Origin: Armatimonadota bacterium
GTDB taxonomy: Bacteria; Armatimonadota; JAAZEB01
NCBI GenBank assembly: GCA_012512505.1
Contig: JAAZEB010000179.1
Location: 1-34,956, forward strand
Length of the DNA: 34,956 bases
Direction: 5' to 3'
The notes beneath the pieces are model-generated. The model did not search any database. It had not been told where the DNA came from and was given only the letters and a program-made list of their open reading frames with translations. Below, one piece after another: positions 18,386 through 29,904 of this stretch (within the stretch, counting starts at the first letter, position 1; each line of letters starts with the position of its first letter). Position numbers and translations under genes: made by a program.

Positions 18386-20626
18386 TCACTCGATAGTTCC
18401 GGCGATCCCCCACTGGTCCATCGCCAGGATCTCCTCGTTGCCGGTGTTGCTGTTCTGCACCTGGAAGCGCAGGAGGAAACGGTCGCGGCCGGCCACCAGC
18501 GGCGTCAGGTCGCGCTCGGCGGTGCCGCCCCACAGGTGATCATCCTGGTAAGGGGTCTCCCAGGTCTGGCCATCGTCCACCGACACCGCGATCTGGTTGT
18601 GTCCGCCCGGCGGCAGCGCCAGGTACATGGAGTGCAGGTAGGCGTCGCGGAAGCGGAGGCCCTCACCCGCCCGCACCTCGTAGACCAGCTCGCCGGTCGC
18701 GCCCGGGGCCAGCGAGAGGCCGTAGGTGCTGATGGTGAAGCCGGTCCGGCTGCGGGCGTGGTAGACCTTGCCGCCGTCGTCGAGCGTATCCAGATAGCGG
18801 AACGGCCCCGCCTGGGCAAAGAAGGTGCCCGGGTCGTTCAGGGCTTCCAGGGTAGAGGCAACATAGGCGCGTGCCGCCTTGCCCACGGTGAGCGTGCCGT
18901 CCAGGCTATCGATCTGTTTCAGGTAGGCTTCGGCCGCCGCCTGCGCCCGCTGCTTGGCCGAGGCATCGCCGCGGCGGAAGCGGCCGGAGGCATCCCAGAA
19001 GTCCAGCCACCGCCGCAGCAACTGCAGGCAGTGCTCGTCACGCTCCAGGCGGGCCACCCGCACGCGGTTGCCAGCTACCTGCGCCTTCGCCGCGGCGATC
19101 TGCCGCAGGGCTTCCTCCACCATCGGCACCGGGTAGAGTCTCGGCACGTCCATCGGCTCGCCGGTGCCGCCCACCGCCATCATCTGCCGCTCAAAGCGCT
19201 CGTAGAGGGCGCGCATCGTCGGGGCGGCCGCCCCGAAGTAGGCCGGGTAGAACTGGTCGAGGAGGGCGTCTACCTTCAGGTTGGCATCCCAGGCGATGCG
19301 GAAGGTGAGCCACATCGTCACGTCGGTGCCCAGGTTGCGGTCGAGGTATTCGGGCATCAGGCCGCTGAAGCCGAGGCGGCGGTAGTAGGCCTGATCCGCT
19401 TCGAGGTTGTGGAAGAGTGTCCAGGGGCCGGGGTACCAGCCGATGTAATCGTAGCTCCAGGCACGGGGGAGCAGCTTCATCCAGCGCTCCACGCGCCGGC
19501 GGTAGGTGTTGCACCAGGGGTTGTTGTCGGTCTTGGGGCGCAACTGCTCCATCGCGTACGAGCAGATGATCGGGTAGAGATTCTGGGCACCCTTCAGGTC
19601 GCGGATGGGCGGCTCGATGGTGCTTGAGTAGGGCAGCAGCGTGATCCCTTTGCCCGGGCAGGCGGCAGCCACGCGCTCGGCCACCTGGTTGGTGAAACGC
19701 AGCACCCGCTCCGCCGGGTTGGCGCCCATCGCCTCGCACTCCGAACACTGGCACCACGCGTCGTTGTCGTTCGGGCTGAAGGTGTAGTAATCGAGGTCGG
19801 GGTTGTTCCCAAAGACGTGGATGAAGCGCTCGGTGGCGATCTCCACGGCGCGCGGGTAGGAGATGCAGATCTGCCCCTCGGCCCCACGCGGGGCACGCTT
19901 GCCGTTGATCATGGCCTGCAGGCCGGGCTCCTTCTCCTGGAGCTCTTTGGGGAAGGTGGTCGACCACTCCTGGCCGCCGTAGCCACGGATGCCGCCGGCG
20001 CGGTTGCGCACGCGCCACTTTGCCATCGCCGCTTGCTCCTCGGGCGTCTGGCGCGCGGCGGCGTTGCCGTTGTACCAGGGCGCGCGCAGCTCGAAGGAGG
20101 GGCGCACTACGGCGTATCCGCCCGGCACGCTCACTTGCACCGTGCGCCGCCGCGGAATGTGGGTGCCGATCTCTCCCGGGGTGAACCAGTGGCAGCCCAG
20201 ATAGTCTTCCAGGAGGCCGTAGACCGCGTTCGACACGCCCTCGGGCCGAGGGCTGAGGAGCGCCAGGTAGCCCTTACCGGCCAGGATCAGGTAGCCGTCC
20301 GGCCAAAAACGCCCCCGGTCCGTCAGCGCCACCGGCAGCTTCACGCCGGGCGGGGTTACGCCCAGGTAGAGCTTCGTGGCGGGCGCCGCCTTCGTGTCCG
20401 TCACCAGGGGCACCCGGGCGCCGGACATTACCTGCAGGTGCCACTGCAGATCCTCGGCCGCCGCCCGGATCCGGTCGTTCTTCTCGGCCGGCAGCACGAT
20501 CGCGCACCGCGCCTGGCCGTTCCCCACCAGCGTCACGCTCACCGGCCGCGGCGCCGCCGACGCTCCCACCCCAACTCCGAGGGCCACCAGGCCAACCGCC
20601 CAACCAATCCAGATCCTTCTCGACAT
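18386..20626 (-). CDS. Secreted DUF4838 protein, 746 aa
   Basis: A signal peptide is clear (MSRRIWIGWAVGLVALGVGVGASA). Residues ~30-150 resemble the N-terminal domain of GH20/GH67 enzymes (RIRAAAEDLQWHLQVMSGARVPL, then DGYLILAGKGYLALLS and GLLEDYLGCHWF). The central region carries the DUF4838 signature, DYYTFSPNDNDAWCQCSECEAMG near residue 290, followed by barrel-like blocks (SYDYIGWYPGPWTLFHNLEAD). The ~100-residue C-terminus (YLALPPGGHNQIAVSVDDGQTWE) is a beta-sandwich like sialidase-repeat or CBM domains. DUF4838 proteins are predicted glycosidases of polysaccharide-degrading bacteria without a settled substrate. ATG 20626 has GGAG 7 bases upstream. It is divergent from the 812-aa secreted protein across 230 bases. 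Confidence 0.85.
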   Translation of the reverse strand: MSRRIWIGWAVGLVALGVGVGASAAPRPVSVTLVGNGQARCAIVLPAEKNDRIRAAAEDLQWHLQVMSGARVPLVTDTKAAPATKLYLGVTPPGVKLPVALTDRGRFWPDGYLILAGKGYLALLSPRPEGVSNAVYGLLEDYLGCHWFTPGEIGTHIPRRRTVQVSVPGGYAVVRPSFELRAPWYNGNAAARQTPEEQAAMAKWRVRNRAGGIRGYGGQEWSTTFPKELQEKEPGLQAMINGKRAPRGAEGQICISYPRAVEIATERFIHVFGNNPDLDYYTFSPNDNDAWCQCSECEAMGANPAERVLRFTNQVAERVAAACPGKGITLLPYSSTIEPPIRDLKGAQNLYPIICSYAMEQLRPKTDNNPWCNTYRRRVERWMKLLPRAWSYDYIGWYPGPWTLFHNLEADQAYYRRLGFSGLMPEYLDRNLGTDVTMWLTFRIAWDANLKVDALLDQFYPAYFGAAAPTMRALYERFERQMMAVGGTGEPMDVPRLYPVPMVEEALRQIAAAKAQVAGNRVRVARLERDEHCLQLLRRWLDFWDASGRFRRGDASAKQRAQAAAEAYLKQIDSLDGTLTVGKAARAYVASTLEALNDPGTFFAQAGPFRYLDTLDDGGKVYHARSRTGFTISTYGLSLAPGATGELVYEVRAGEGLRFRDAYLHSMYLALPPGGHNQIAVSVDDGQTWETPYQDDHLWGGTAERDLTPLVAGRDRFLLRFQVQNSNTGNEEILAMDQWGIAGTIE

Positions 20627-24256: not shown

Positions 24257-24334
24257 GTTCATTCCTCTCTGTCTAGTACACTGTGATAGTAGGAGGCCGT
24301 CGCGCCATTCGCGGGCCTCGGCGGCGATGGCCGG

Positions 24335-27283
24335 CTAATCGGCGGCCACCGGCTGGCCGTTCAGGTAAAGCGTGCGCTGGCGAGTGGTGCCCTCCACCGT
24401 CGCGGCGACGTGCGACCAGCGCCCTAACGGCAGGTTGGCGGCATAGGTCAGGAACGGGTCACGCGCGATCAGGCGCAGCGAGTTCCCGGGGTAGGTATCC
24501 AGCAGGTAGGCGGTCGCTATCCCTACCGGCGACTTATCGATCACCCGGACGCCTGCCGGTGGCAAGGCCGCCGGGCGGATCCAGGCCGCCAGGGTGATGC
24601 CGTCCGGGCAGTCGAGCGCGCGGTCATCCGCGATCTCCAGGAAGCCTTGCCCATCCAGCTTCAGCGCCGTACCGGGCAGCCCCTCGGCCGCCTCGCCGGT
24701 GGCAACCGTGCCCACAACGCGGGCCGGCAGCGCCGGAAGCGCCAGGTTGGGGAAATGGTCTCCCTCCCGCCGGTCAAAGTCGAGGCGAACCAGGCATCCC
24801 TCGGGTGAGCCCGAATCGGGGCGCGCCGGATCGGCCAGGCGCGCGATCTCTTCCGGGCTCAAGGCGCGATTGTAGACGCGCACGTAGGCCATCTCACCGG
24901 TGAAGCGGCACCCGCCGTTGCTATCGGCACCGATGCGCAGCGGCAGGCGATTTGGCAGGATAGGGGCAGTGCTAATCTGCAGCGGCGGGGCAGCATCCGC
25001 CGGCGCGGGCGGGATCGCCGCCGGGCGCGGCAGCGTCGCCTCGATCACCTCGCCCGCCTTCAGCGAAACGACGTAATCCGGCCCCACCTTGCGCACCCCG
25101 GCGCGGCTCCAGCGCGGCTGGCGGCCGCCGAAGTTATCGCGAATGCGCACCGCGCCGGTGCGGCCGGCAACGACGCGCAGCCAGGTGGTGGCGTTGCGCT
25201 CGCGCCGGGCGGAGACGCGGTGCCCCCCTTCGACGCGCAGGTCGGCGAACGACGCCGTGTGCCAACGCCAGGGCGTCGCCGGGAAGAGGCGGATGGCGCC
25301 CGGCTCGCCGGAGCCGGGGCGGACGCTCCAGCTTTGCAGCAGCATCTCGTGGACCGCCTGCAGCGCCAGGAAGTTGCCCTCCAGCGTGAACGGCCGGTAG
25401 GTCATGCTCGAAAAGCCAAGGCCCGACTGATCGCCGTTGCAGTGGAAGCCGTTGCGCAAGACGAAGGCGTTGACGAAGATGTCGAGGTTGCGCAGTGCCG
25501 CCTCGGCATCGCCCACGCGCGCCCGCAAGCAGGCCATCCACGAGAAGCTGTAGCCGCACCAGGCCGCCGTGCCCAGTTCGTCATAGCGCCGGCAGGTGGC
25601 CGTAATCACCTGGCGGTCGCGGTCAGTGCCTTCCGCGTGGATCAGCCCGAACGGGTGGATCGCCATGCTGTGCGAGAAGTGCCGGTGCGACTCGCGCACT
25701 TCATCCTCCGGCGAGAACATCAGGCAGCCTTCCGCGTCCGTCGCGAACCCGCCCAGGTCTTCGGCGTCCTGGCGCCACCGTGCGGCCTCTTCGTGCTTCC
25801 CGAGGGTGCTGGCCATCTCCGCCAGCGAGAGGAACAGCGCCTTCAGGCAGGCCTGGTCGTAGCTGCTGTTCGGCTTCAGCCAGGCACGCGGGGTGTTGTC
25901 GAAGATCTCCGGCGAGGAGGAAAGCGCCAGCTTCAGCAGGCCCTGGGCGTCTGGCTGCAGCATCGCGCGCAGGCTGGTGCCCACCTCAGCGCACCAGGGG
26001 TAGGCCCGCTCCCTCAGGAAGCGGGCATCGCGCGTGTAGCGCCAGTGCTCGGCAAATAGCCAGCCCAGCCAGGCGGCGTTGGTGGGCGACAGCGAGTACT
26101 GCGGCCAGCCGGTCAGCGGCTTTCCATCGAGGCTCATCACCCCGGGCACGGCCGCGCCCGGAGTGCCGTAAAAGCGACGCGCAAACTGCCGAAACTCCGG
26201 CAGCAGCTTCCAGAGGAAGTCGAGGAAGCAGCGCCCCTCCGCGAAGTGCCCGGCCATCAGGTAGCCGGCGTAGGTCATCTGGGTGTTCAGATCGTGGTGA
26301 TAGTCGCCCTTCCAGGGTGGGAGGCCACCCTCGTCCGCCGTCCAAACGCCCTGCAGCGGGATCGGCGGCGCCCCGGGCCGCGAGGCCGCGCCGTAGAAGT
26401 AGCGGACCAGATAGTACTGCTTCAGGATGAGCGGATCCGGCACCGAGACGCGCGACTGCGCCCAGAAGCGCGCCCACCACTGCCGGTGCGGCGCAAAGAG
26501 CACTGCGTAACCGCGCGCCAGCGCCCGCGCCACTCGCTGCCGGGCCACGGCCACCGGGTCGGCGCCATCGGCGGTCGAGGCCACCGTCACCGCCACCAGC
26601 GTCACGTTTCCCACCCGGCGCGTGGCAGCCAGGCCGGCGTAGCGCAGGCCGGAGCCCGCCTCCTGCACATACCACCGCGCGCCATCCGCCTCACCGTGCG
26701 TCGCGGGAGGATGCCCGAGCTGCTTCACCGACTCCGGCGCGAGGAGGCGGATCTCCTTGGGCGCTGGCCCGGGGATCCGCAGCAAGGCCACCGGCTCCCT
26801 CGCGCTGACGAAGGCGGCAATGGTGCCTCCCTCCTTCAGGCGCGCGCGCCCCTCCGCCGTCGCCAGATCCAGAGAGAACTCCTGGATGCTTTGCGAGGGA
26901 TCGAGGTCGATCTCCAGGCGGCCGGCCGGCACCTTGGTCGGGTACGGAATGCCGTACGGCTCGTCGAAGCGGCGGCGCAGCTCGTCGTGCTTCCCCTCGG
27001 CCACCAGCCGCTTCAGGGTGGCCCAGGTCCAATCCTCCTCCTGCAGGACCTCCGGGAGACGCAAGTCCCACAGGTCGCCCCGGTCCAGCGAAAGGCGCAG
27101 GGTAGACCCGGAGCCCCACAGCAGCCCGCCCATCAGGCCGTTGCCGAGGGGAATCGCCTCGTCCCAGCGGGAGATCGGCGCCTTGAGCACCGGGTTCAGA
27201 TCCGCCGGAGGCAGGCGCGACTCAGCGGCATCGGCCGCCCCCGCGAGGGCAGCGAGCAGGATCAACACCCTTGGCATCATCAT
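24335..27283 (-). CDS. Secreted GH95-like glycosidase with permuted C-terminal LamG domain
   Basis: 982 residues, with a signal peptide (MPRVLILLAALAGAADAAES). AIPLGNGLMGGLLWGSG, LDRGDLWD and the following beta domain match the N-terminus of GH95 (alpha-L-fucosidase/galactosidase); the (alpha/alpha)6 barrel follows. The presumed acid is E459 (SSSPEIFDN). The usual NxN pair appears as D331 and N333 (YHHDLNTQM), and the usual QIDGN base motif as TLEGN with E635, so two expected catalytic residues differ. Residues 764-816 (PPLQIST...RVYNRALSPEEIARL) are the C-terminal third of a LamG jelly roll. Residues 828-982 (VRLDFDRREGD...LYLNGQPVAAD) are its N-terminal two thirds, so the order is swapped. 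Three consecutive ATGs (27283, 27280, 27277) follow GGGGAG. The gene lies 28 bases after the M60-like gene. Confidence 0.85.
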   Translation of the reverse strand: MMMPRVLILLAALAGAADAAESRLPPADLNPVLKAPISRWDEAIPLGNGLMGGLLWGSGSTLRLSLDRGDLWDLRLPEVLQEEDWTWATLKRLVAEGKHDELRRRFDEPYGIPYPTKVPAGRLEIDLDPSQSIQEFSLDLATAEGRARLKEGGTIAAFVSAREPVALLRIPGPAPKEIRLLAPESVKQLGHPPATHGEADGARWYVQEAGSGLRYAGLAATRRVGNVTLVAVTVASTADGADPVAVARQRVARALARGYAVLFAPHRQWWARFWAQSRVSVPDPLILKQYYLVRYFYGAASRPGAPPIPLQGVWTADEGGLPPWKGDYHHDLNTQMTYAGYLMAGHFAEGRCFLDFLWKLLPEFRQFARRFYGTPGAAVPGVMSLDGKPLTGWPQYSLSPTNAAWLGWLFAEHWRYTRDARFLRERAYPWCAEVGTSLRAMLQPDAQGLLKLALSSSPEIFDNTPRAWLKPNSSYDQACLKALFLSLAEMASTLGKHEEAARWRQDAEDLGGFATDAEGCLMFSPEDEVRESHRHFSHSMAIHPFGLIHAEGTDRDRQVITATCRRYDELGTAAWCGYSFSWMACLRARVGDAEAALRNLDIFVNAFVLRNGFHCNGDQSGLGFSSMTYRPFTLEGNFLALQAVHEMLLQSWSVRPGSGEPGAIRLFPATPWRWHTASFADLRVEGGHRVSARRERNATTWLRVVAGRTGAVRIRDNFGGRQPRWSRAGVRKVGPDYVVSLKAGEVIEATLPRPAAIPPAPADAAPPLQISTAPILPNRLPLRIGADSNGGCRFTGEMAYVRVYNRALSPEEIARLADPARPDSGSPEGCLVRLDFDRREGDHFPNLALPALPARVVGTVATGEAAEGLPGTALKLDGQGFLEIADDRALDCPDGITLAAWIRPAALPPAGVRVIDKSPVGIATAYLLDTYPGNSLRLIARDPFLTYAANLPLGRWSHVAATVEGTTRQRTLYLNGQPVAAD

Positions 27284-27311
27284 CTCTCCCCGAAGCAGGG
27301 TTGGTCGGCGT

Positions 27312-29588
27312 TCACTCGCGGCCACCGGTCGTGGCGGTGCCGTTCCCCGTTGTGATCGGAAGGCCATTCTGGAAGTCGGGCGGGAGCCACAGCGGCAGGT
27401 CCTCGATTGACCGACGCGCCTCCTCGGACGTGGGGATGCCCCAGGCAGTGAAGAACGGCCCCAGGTTGCGCCCCACCACCCGGGAGAAGCGGACCAGGAA
27501 CTGGTCGCGCTTCTCGTCGTCGTTGGTCGGCAGGTCCTTACGGTTGGCGGCGCGGTAGTCGGCGAAGAGGCGCTGGTAGGCTTCCCAGCCGAACGCCTGC
27601 TGCAACTGGGCGTAGAACATCAGCGAGAGGCCCGGGTCGCGGCACCATTCAGCGAACTTGGCGCCACGGGCGAAGTAGTCACGAACCGTCTGGTTGCGCT
27701 CGGCGACGTTCAGCCAGGCGTTTTTCAACACCGGCTCGCCACTCACCCGCTCACAGCAGTAGAGGCTAAAGAGGTTGTTCGTCGTCTCGCCGGTGCCGGC
27801 GAAGGTCCAGTCGGCGCTCTGGTAGTTGTGGCCCAGCTCGTGCCAGAAGCCCCAGCACAGCTTGGCGCCGCCGGTGCGCAGGCGCTCGCGGTCCACCATC
27901 AGCGGCGGCACGTCGAGGTGGGTCATGATCGGGTAGCCGGCATGCATGTAGCCGCCGCTGATCTGCTGGTCACAGCAGATGCGCTCCGGGCGTTCTCGCT
28001 CGTGGGGGATGCCGGCCAGGTCGGCGATGGCATCGAGGCCCTCATCCCACACCTGCATCAAGGCCTCCGGGTCGTCCAGGTCGCGCACCACGGCGGCCGG
28101 CACGGTGAGGATGATCTTGCGCGTTGCCAGCTCGGCCCAGGGCGCCGGGTAGTGGCGAATGGTGGTGCGCCAGGCCTCCAGGGTCGTCTCGCCCGCCACG
28201 AAGAGCGGCATCCGCACGGCGCCTTTGATCGTGACGGCCACCCGCCCCGCCCGACAGCCCCGGGGCACGGTGACGTAGAGGATGCCGCCAAACGGGTTGC
28301 CGCAGCGGGTGACCGCGCGCGTGAGCGGCAGCGCCCGGCTGATCTCGGGGAAGCGGCGCCACTCCTCGTGGTGCCAAATTGTATCGGTGTGGCTGCCGAT
28401 GCGCAGCCCCAGGCCGGCGCCCACCGCCTCGTCGGGGATCTGCACCTCCACCGGCTCGCCTGGCGCGGCGTAAAGCCCGGTGCTGTGCCAGTCTGGTACC
28501 GCAGTGTCGATGGTCACGGTAGCGGTGACGCGCGGGGCGCTGGCGGGAACCGCCCCGGGGAAGCCAGCGGCGGCGGGATGGGCCCGCAGGCGGCTCACCG
28601 GCGCCCGGCGCAGCTCGGCGTGCTGTAGCACGCAGGCAATCCGGCCGACCGGCTCCGCCAGCGACAGCGGCTGCTTCGGCAGCGGCACCGCCGGGCGCTT
28701 CCGGGCCACCAGCCGGCGCAGTCGGGGAAGCAGCACCCGGTCGTCACCCGGCACGGCGCCGCAGGCGCTGCTAAGCGTGTAAGAGACCTGCGCCAGCTCC
28801 TCTTTGGCGAGCTTCGCCTGTCCGTCGGCGTGCCGCTCCAGCGCCGTCAGCGCCGTGCTGGCGTGGGAGAAGGTGAGGCCAGAGCGGTCGGCCAGCCAGC
28901 CCTCCGGGCCGGTCGGATCCAACCAGCCATCGGCGATCGCCAGGCCCATGCGGGCCGACAGCCGGTTGCCGCCGTAGTCGTCGGCCAGCGACAGGCCCGG
29001 GTTGAGCTGCAGCCATCCCCAGCCGGGGATGCCGTCGCACCACCCGCCGCCCTGGTCAACGAAGCGGGCCACCGCCTCGATCACCTTGTCCTGGTCGCGC
29101 GGGGTGAGGCGGCCGCCGGCAAGGAAGAGGACGTCGGCGTTTTTCAGGCTGGGCAGCAGCTCGTCGTAGGCGATGCGCTTCACCGCGAAGCCCGCCTCGG
29201 CAAGGGGCGAGGCCACCTGCGGATGATCGACCACCAGGACGCGGGCTTGCTTGCCGCGCGCACCGGCCAGCCACGTGGTGATGTTGAGGATCAGCCGCCG
29301 CTGGTCGCGCCGCTCCAGGGTACCATAGAGGCCCTCGTGGCCCGACAGCACTACCCGCCCCTTTCCATAGTGCGCCGCCGCCAGGATCGGCAGCCGGTTC
29401 GCGCCGGTGCGGCCGGTGATCACCGGGAAAGCGCGCGTGCCGAAAACCGCCACCGGGCCGACCAGGCACCGCGGCGCCACCACCTCCCGCACATTATCCA
29501 GCAGCACGTCCAGATCGGCCGGCGCCGCCGCGGCCGGGCCAACCTCAACCAGCAGCAGCAGCGCGGCCATCATCCGCCAGGACATCAT
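27312..29588 (-). CDS. Secreted M60-like (enhancin/mucinase-type) metallopeptidase, 758 aa
   Basis: A signal peptide covers MMSWRMMAALLLLVEVGPAAA. The first ~300 residues look like a GATase1/ThuA-like Rossmann domain (LPILAAAHYGKGRVVLSGHEGLYG, VLFLAGGRLTPRDQDKVIEAVARFVDQGGG). Beta-sandwich segments follow, then the peptidase domain with HELGH at 583-587 and a third ligand E601 in GTGETTNN, that is HExxH-13-E, the M60 gluzincin pattern. The upstream CGNPFGGILYVTVP segment is also typical of M60-like proteins. Characterised relatives cleave mucins and other O-glycoproteins. ATG 29588 or 29585 may start the protein, with GGTGAG just upstream. It is followed after 28 bases by the GH95-like gene, so the two are likely co-expressed. 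Confidence 0.88.
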   Translation of the reverse strand: MMSWRMMAALLLLVEVGPAAAAPADLDVLLDNVREVVAPRCLVGPVAVFGTRAFPVITGRTGANRLPILAAAHYGKGRVVLSGHEGLYGTLERRDQRRLILNITTWLAGARGKQARVLVVDHPQVASPLAEAGFAVKRIAYDELLPSLKNADVLFLAGGRLTPRDQDKVIEAVARFVDQGGGWCDGIPGWGWLQLNPGLSLADDYGGNRLSARMGLAIADGWLDPTGPEGWLADRSGLTFSHASTALTALERHADGQAKLAKEELAQVSYTLSSACGAVPGDDRVLLPRLRRLVARKRPAVPLPKQPLSLAEPVGRIACVLQHAELRRAPVSRLRAHPAAAGFPGAVPASAPRVTATVTIDTAVPDWHSTGLYAAPGEPVEVQIPDEAVGAGLGLRIGSHTDTIWHHEEWRRFPEISRALPLTRAVTRCGNPFGGILYVTVPRGCRAGRVAVTIKGAVRMPLFVAGETTLEAWRTTIRHYPAPWAELATRKIILTVPAAVVRDLDDPEALMQVWDEGLDAIADLAGIPHERERPERICCDQQISGGYMHAGYPIMTHLDVPPLMVDRERLRTGGAKLCWGFWHELGHNYQSADWTFAGTGETTNNLFSLYCCERVSGEPVLKNAWLNVAERNQTVRDYFARGAKFAEWCRDPGLSLMFYAQLQQAFGWEAYQRLFADYRAANRKDLPTNDDEKRDQFLVRFSRVVGRNLGPFFTAWGIPTSEEARRSIEDLPLWLPPDFQNGLPITTGNGTATTGGRE

Positions 29589-29904
29589 CAGCTCACCATT
29601 CTGCCCGAAGGGATTTCCGGTGCCAGGCACCGCGCCGTGAGATCGGGGCCTGGCGTCCATTCGTCCCCCTCAGGGGTTCGCCGGGAGGCGGTGGGGGTTC
29701 CTCTCTTGAGGACCCTCGGCCGGAGGTGATCCGACCTCGCCCCAGGAGAAGACCCGGCAGGAGGTCGGCCGCCCGGCTGCGAATCCTGGGAGCCGGGGGC
29801 CCACCCTTTGCCAGCCACCCCGGCATCGCCGGACGCTGTGTCTCACCGTCGGCACCCTCTACCTGAACGCGGCCCCCGACGGCCCACTTATTTGGAGGAA
29901 CCTG
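29589..29904. other. Divergent intergenic region with several small palindromes
   Basis: The 316 bases between the M60-like gene (-) and the FadL-like gene (+) code for nothing I recognise. They contain a perfect inverted repeat, CGGTGCC-A-GGCACCG (29618-29632), similar to REP sequences found near RAYT-type transposases. CCCC-TCA-GGGG is at 29665-29675, and a hairpin GGGTTCCTC/GAGGACCC at 29695-29715. I found no convincing promoter hexamers for either gene. Confidence 0.5.

Follow-up and report, generated by a model that had tools for sequence, protein, structure and literature searches.

Does the GH95-type glycoside hydrolase encoded in this stretch of DNA end in a single LamG domain whose parts have been rotated, and if so, how old is the rotation and how did it arise? 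The window, the whole 34,956 nucleotides analysed here, is one entire contig (G000:C81) from a 396-contig draft genome of an Armatimonadota bacterium. A preliminary description had proposed that the C-terminal block of the LamG domain stands ahead of the N-terminal blocks and that the protein stops where the displaced block should continue. For natural LamG domains we define block A as the first strand ('LVGHWTFD'), block B as LDG...TLAAWIRP...WSHVAAT...LYLNG and block C as PLRIGADxxGxxxFxG...ALSxEEIA. The features needed for the argument are as follows.

24335..27367, minus strand: gene for a glycoside hydrolase of the GH95 type, assigned by Pfam; 1010 codons counting from the first ATG
26609..27184, minus strand: Glyco_hyd_65N_2, the N-terminal beta-sandwich of GH95, residues 62-253 (E 1.6e-11)
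25340..26419, minus strand: GH95 catalytic (alpha/alpha)6 domain, residues 317-676 (Glyco_hydro_95_cat, 3.9e-49)
25136..25300, minus strand: GH95 C-terminal beta domain, residues 690-744, a weak match that stays under the curated threshold (E 0.004)
24338..24988, minus strand: LamG domain judged to be circularly permuted, PPLQIST...LYLNGQPVAAD, order C-A-B (Pfam, segment profiles, rotation, AlphaFold2)
24827..24949, minus strand: block C, 'RLPLRIGADSNGGCRFTGEMAYVRVYNRALSPEEIARLADP', the last part of a natural LamG domain, first here (segment profile)
24806..24826, minus strand: new linker ARPDSGS bridging the former C- and N-termini, short and variable among homologues
24707..24805, minus strand: block A, 'PEGCLVRLDFDRREGDHFPNLALPALPARVVGT', the opening part of a natural LamG domain (segment profile)
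24350..24679, minus strand: block B, 'LPGTALKLDGQGFLEI...TLAAWIRP...WSHVAATVEG...RTLYLNGQP', the jelly-roll core, last here (segment profile)
24335..24337, minus strand: stop codon at the point where a natural LamG domain goes on into block C, directly after LYLNGQPVAAD

The reading frame of the host gene is open throughout. Taking M29 as the start gives a protein of 982 residues, which matches the numbering of the preliminary description, and a likely signal peptide follows M29. The Pfam GH95 catalytic-domain profile matched the protein with 168.1 bits (cut-off 27). The GH95 fucosidase and galactosidase structures 2rdy, 7kmq, 4ufc and 2eab are homologous to the catalytic part, and alignment with these chains is limited to the region ahead of the LamG domain. 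At the aligned active-site motif positions the window enzyme deviates from the solved enzymes, having DLNTQMTY in place of NINTEMNY (NxNxxMNYW) and TLEGNF in place of QIDGNF(G). Judged from sequence, these altered motifs may mean a different substrate or mechanism. An M60 (enhancin-like) peptidase gene adjoins the GH95 gene (27312-29660, minus strand) and a DUF4838 protein is encoded at 18386-20626; the GH95/M60/DUF4838 locus may act on glycoproteins.

Segment profiles placed block C (E 1e-22) ahead of blocks A (5e-11) and B (5e-46), and thus the order originally proposed was borne out, as was the protein end at LYLNGQPVAAD. The Pfam LamG_3 family (PF13385) matched with 81.9 bits (cut-off 27.6, E 7e-23) in two stretches, the main one covering residues 906-1008 and profile positions 3-103 of 151 and running up to the C-terminus. 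This is what the C-A-B order entails, as profile searches that depend on order break such a domain into two partial LamG matches. The canonical A-B-C order was absent from any single alignment, and the full profile aligned only when the window domain was rotated. For rotation we used a natural-order LamG profile built from 14 domains and moved the cut in steps of four residues. The score rose from 116.6 bits unrotated to 162.4 bits with a cut just past the block C helix 'EIARLADP', giving one alignment over profile positions 29-202 of 204. Rejoining the two ends, as had been suggested, therefore restored one alignment to the natural-order profile. Rotation with the cut past the block C helix likewise gave a full-length natural-order match in 23 of the 24 full-length permuted domains described below, raising their scores by about 24 to 55 bits; only L078 deviated, gaining just 1.3 bits and with a different cut. 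The window domain shares the motifs of every block with PF13385 (Laminin_G_3, ConA-like lectin-glucanase) and would have the same fold; the natural order of that family is A-B-C, whereas the order in the window domain is C-A-B and its new ends fall between the NGxxVA strand and the PLRIG strand. Natural-order LamG members are present alongside permuted ones in the window genome and in the phylum.

A search for relatives of the whole protein found the same enzyme in G029, with the same block order, the same end point and 56% identity over the domain, and showed that G016 and G052 carry the permuted domain (46% identity) in different proteins. A profile (A1) built from these four domains, that of the window included, was run over 291 genomes of the phylum and returned two distinct protein sets, one with contiguous C-A-B order and one with B first and then C. 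The comparison of homologues in swapped and normal order called for by the preliminary description thus gave a C-A-B arrangement that recurs across the phylum and a separate natural-order set. About ten families of the phylum contributed 24 distinct full-length C-A-B domains, and many shortened ones were present besides; alignment of the 24 gave common borders, a common cut site and a common linker position. Many columns are invariant in both halves of the permuted domain. The module occurs with the same borders in four settings: (i) as the last domain of GH95 enzymes (the window protein, L079, L064 and L149), (ii) as an insert in a single loop of GH139/DUF5703 enzymes, (iii) in a second large protein family, with a beta domain ahead of it and a helical C-terminal domain behind it, and (iv) right behind the signal peptide and ahead of GH95 (L246-L248). 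As the module starts at block C after a signal peptide in one setting and ends at block B followed by a stop codon in another, the domain is complete in C-A-B order.

Some carriers have features of their own. Members of the family in setting iii (L078, L066, L067, L070-L077) gave no catalytic Pfam match among those scanned, and the family is possibly glycoside hydrolase-like. In L079 (G029:C66) two copies of 'PEFHVKQAAA' lie just ahead of the LamG domain, and FHVKQ can be encoded by the palindrome TTTCACGTGAAACA; the copies may be small repeat insertions. In L064 (G062:C290) about 55 residues ending in 'SQPSRV' break the permuted LamG domain before YLNG; since 'PSRVYL' also opens the frame, a small repeat element is suggested. 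In a scan of public genome contigs the window domain matched one distant natural LamG domain and nothing else, and it had no match in plasmids. A GH139 insert used against plasmids found weak LamG matches, mostly in Streptomyces. Viral contigs had solely natural-order LamG among the cases looked at, and these domains served as rows of the alignment for structure prediction. No strong match turned up in 200 genomes from the phylum to which a Lachnoclostridium belongs, a result that by itself does not prove absence there.

The GH139 setting offers a comparison of filled and empty sites. DUF5703 corresponds to GH139, the family of the 2-O-methyl-fucosidases BT0984 and SDT91673.1 (PDB 9hyq and 9hmb) described in PMC12282258. 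The hosts consist of DUF5703_N plus GH95-like enzymes, and the insert lies between the motifs '..RSWIRVSG' and 'VTQGYxLQRFxxACAGRGxxPIKFNG', which are 51-59 residues apart at empty sites versus 198-275 at filled ones; relatives with an empty site have about 760 residues. By our reading of these motifs against the description in PMC12282258, the insertion site would be the loop that connects strand beta-17 with helix alpha-3, past the small strand between alpha-2 and alpha-3. The GH139 framework of BT0984 and SDT91673.1 carries a permuted module in many members of the phylum, whereas the solved structures 9hmb and 9hyq are without the insert, and a text search of that paper brought up neither LamG nor an insertion. 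Another group of GH139 inserts (L119-L135, L111, L112 and L114) keeps the C-B order but is shortened, with the LDGxGxLE strand and the greater part of block A missing; these are possibly a minimised jelly roll.

AlphaFold2 was run on a 227-residue construct with a 27-row alignment consisting of the query and 26 phage LamG rows, which are distant and some of which span the C1-N2 junctions of tandem arrays. The model had a mean pLDDT of 82.3 and a pTM of 0.81, was all beta and contained the expected helix, and the two halves were packed together; a run on the single sequence was poor (pLDDT 41). Hence, the window domain is predicted to fold as one compact domain, in contrast to the two non-packing truncated domains that the preliminary description had named as a refutation. 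Foldseek against the PDB returned only partial sequential matches to LamG/pentraxin-like folds, the best among the clean hits being AbnA domain 4 (TMq 0.44) and PTX3 (0.34), and its long matches were poor with very high rmsd. Partial sequential matches are the pattern expected of a permutant owing to its altered connectivity.

We are highly confident that the window domain is a genuine natural circular permutant, a reading supported by rotation, by the four host contexts and by the one-domain structure prediction. The split Pfam match could also describe two separate truncated LamG fragments left by a decayed tandem array, and the window genome does contain a tandem natural LamG pair (L002) in which loss of the outer halves would leave C1-N2. 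Such a pair of fragments is nevertheless hard to reconcile with borders that are identical across four host contexts, in the 24 full-length domains as well as in many shorter ones, with the numerous invariant columns in both halves and with the compact AlphaFold2 model, and we regard it as very improbable. Slightly less credible still is a strand-swapped dimer, in which the permuted module would pair with that of a neighbouring chain rather than close on itself. The short new linker and exchanged strands would fit swapping, but the GH139 module is tethered at both ends within one loop, elsewhere the module is a free N-terminal or C-terminal domain, and the monomer model is confident. That the order is an artefact of a sequencing or assembly error, a frameshift or a truncated contig has a negligible probability. 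The window is indeed a whole contig of a 396-contig draft, but the frame is open and the next gene begins at 24262, only 72 bases past the GH95 stop, so that no second LamG half is concealed downstream; the hidden LamG C-terminus beyond 24335 raised as a concern by the preliminary description is thereby excluded. The same order in independent genomes and throughout the phylum already refutes such an error.

A second permuted register is also indicated. Another GH95 group has at its N-terminus a signal peptide, then block B, block C and then 'GVLGDWxFxxxPGxxIxPxxGxLxL', a tail that resembles block A (13 carriers: L142-L145, L147, L148, L150-L152, L154, L237, L245 and L252). Used by itself, the A-segment profile missed strand A of this register at the threshold chosen, and hence the tail was tested by the gain in score relative to shuffled tails. 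Adding block A to the profile raised the score by 1.4-11.3 bits in all 13 proteins, in each case above every one of 50 shuffled versions of that protein's own tail, whereas natural-order controls gained at most 0.2 bits. Profile-profile comparison of the tail with block A gave a P of 3.4e-4 at 38% probability. These sequence comparisons are good evidence, weaker than that for the window register, that B-C-A would be a second circular permutation with the first strand moved to the end. The LamG subfamily thus probably occurs in all three cyclic block orders. We lean toward the fuller reading that a single subfamily within one phylum has A-B-C, B-C-A and C-A-B forms, mostly in related GH95/GH139 (alpha/alpha)6 enzymes, and that one permuted register came from the other. 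If the three-order reading is true, permutation would be a recurrent adaptation of a binding module to N-terminal, C-terminal and in-loop attachment.

In a tree built on blocks B and C, which covers 71 domains over 149 columns and has weak deep branches, the window copy fell inside the clade of GH95 C-terminal domains with support of 100/99. As this clade is nested among older permuted modules, the permutation predates the window gene. Hence, the preliminary description was right that the LamG domain is permuted, though the rotation arose elsewhere than in this gene; the window domain is a member of an old, mobile family of permuted LamG modules in the phylum. The B-C-A set came out as a single clade (89/86), whose placement inside the C-A-B domains is not strongly supported. 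The permutation could be real and yet have occurred independently in each host enzyme, an alternative that concerns history only and is compatible with permutation itself. It draws on the existence of two different registers and on a best tree that has three register changes where the minimum is two. It seems unlikely, if by some way the most plausible of the alternatives, given that neither a single C-A-B clade (p-AU 0.174) nor a single clade of all permuted domains (p-AU 0.345) was rejected and that the C-A-B domains all have the same cut site and linker position.

Returning to one old permuted family, we consider its origin by tandem duplication of a natural-order LamG domain followed by loss of the outer halves a reasonably probable route. 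Tandem natural LamG pairs in the window genome (L002) and in phages have junctions that already read as C1-N2, which makes duplication and loss of outer halves the simplest path to C-A-B. The old C-terminus, past the ALSPEEIARLA helix, would thereby have become linked to what was once the first strand (CLVRLDF), and the loop that joins the 'LYLNGQPVA' strand to the 'PLRIGAD' strand would hold the new termini, so that the C-terminal ~217 residues would form one LamG/ConA-like jelly roll. The module would then have been carried as a GH139 loop insert, between the domains of the second large family and as an N-terminal or C-terminal part of GH95 enzymes, with the window gene inheriting the GH95 C-terminal version.

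Given its LamG family and its architecture, namely secreted GH95 and GH139 enzymes and the M60 peptidase beside the window gene, we favor a putative role for the permuted domain as an accessory module of the carbohydrate-binding type. Such a module would hold the secreted GH95 enzyme on its glycan, and the changed termini, on neighbouring strands, would allow easy plugging into loops as well as attachment at an end. The termini of natural LamG domains are often near each other too, and thus a plug-in advantage of permutation is offered only as a hypothesis.

In the literature searched, which was mostly open-access, neither a permuted LamG domain nor the GH139 insert was described, and the family is apparently undescribed so far. 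Evidence for natural circular permutation commonly comes from a handful of structure pairs. Here the natural and two permuted orders, empty and filled sites and tandem arrays in relatives make it testable how permutation proceeded and how it relates to insertion, and an accessory module is indicated for GH139, a rhamnogalacturonan-II enzyme family the solved members of which are without it. Concanavalin A, a legume lectin, is a natural circular permutant of the ConA-like fold, and the Fibrobacter glucanase is a GH16 enzyme; neither belongs to the LamG family and, to our knowledge, neither is a LamG module that has moved between enzymes or been inserted in a loop. The Fibrobacter succinogenes 1,3-1,4-beta-glucanase is a natural permutant at the level of the gene (Tsai et al. 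2003, as cited in PMC2213659). The window domain would resemble both proteins as a jelly roll that has relocated its termini and retained its fold.
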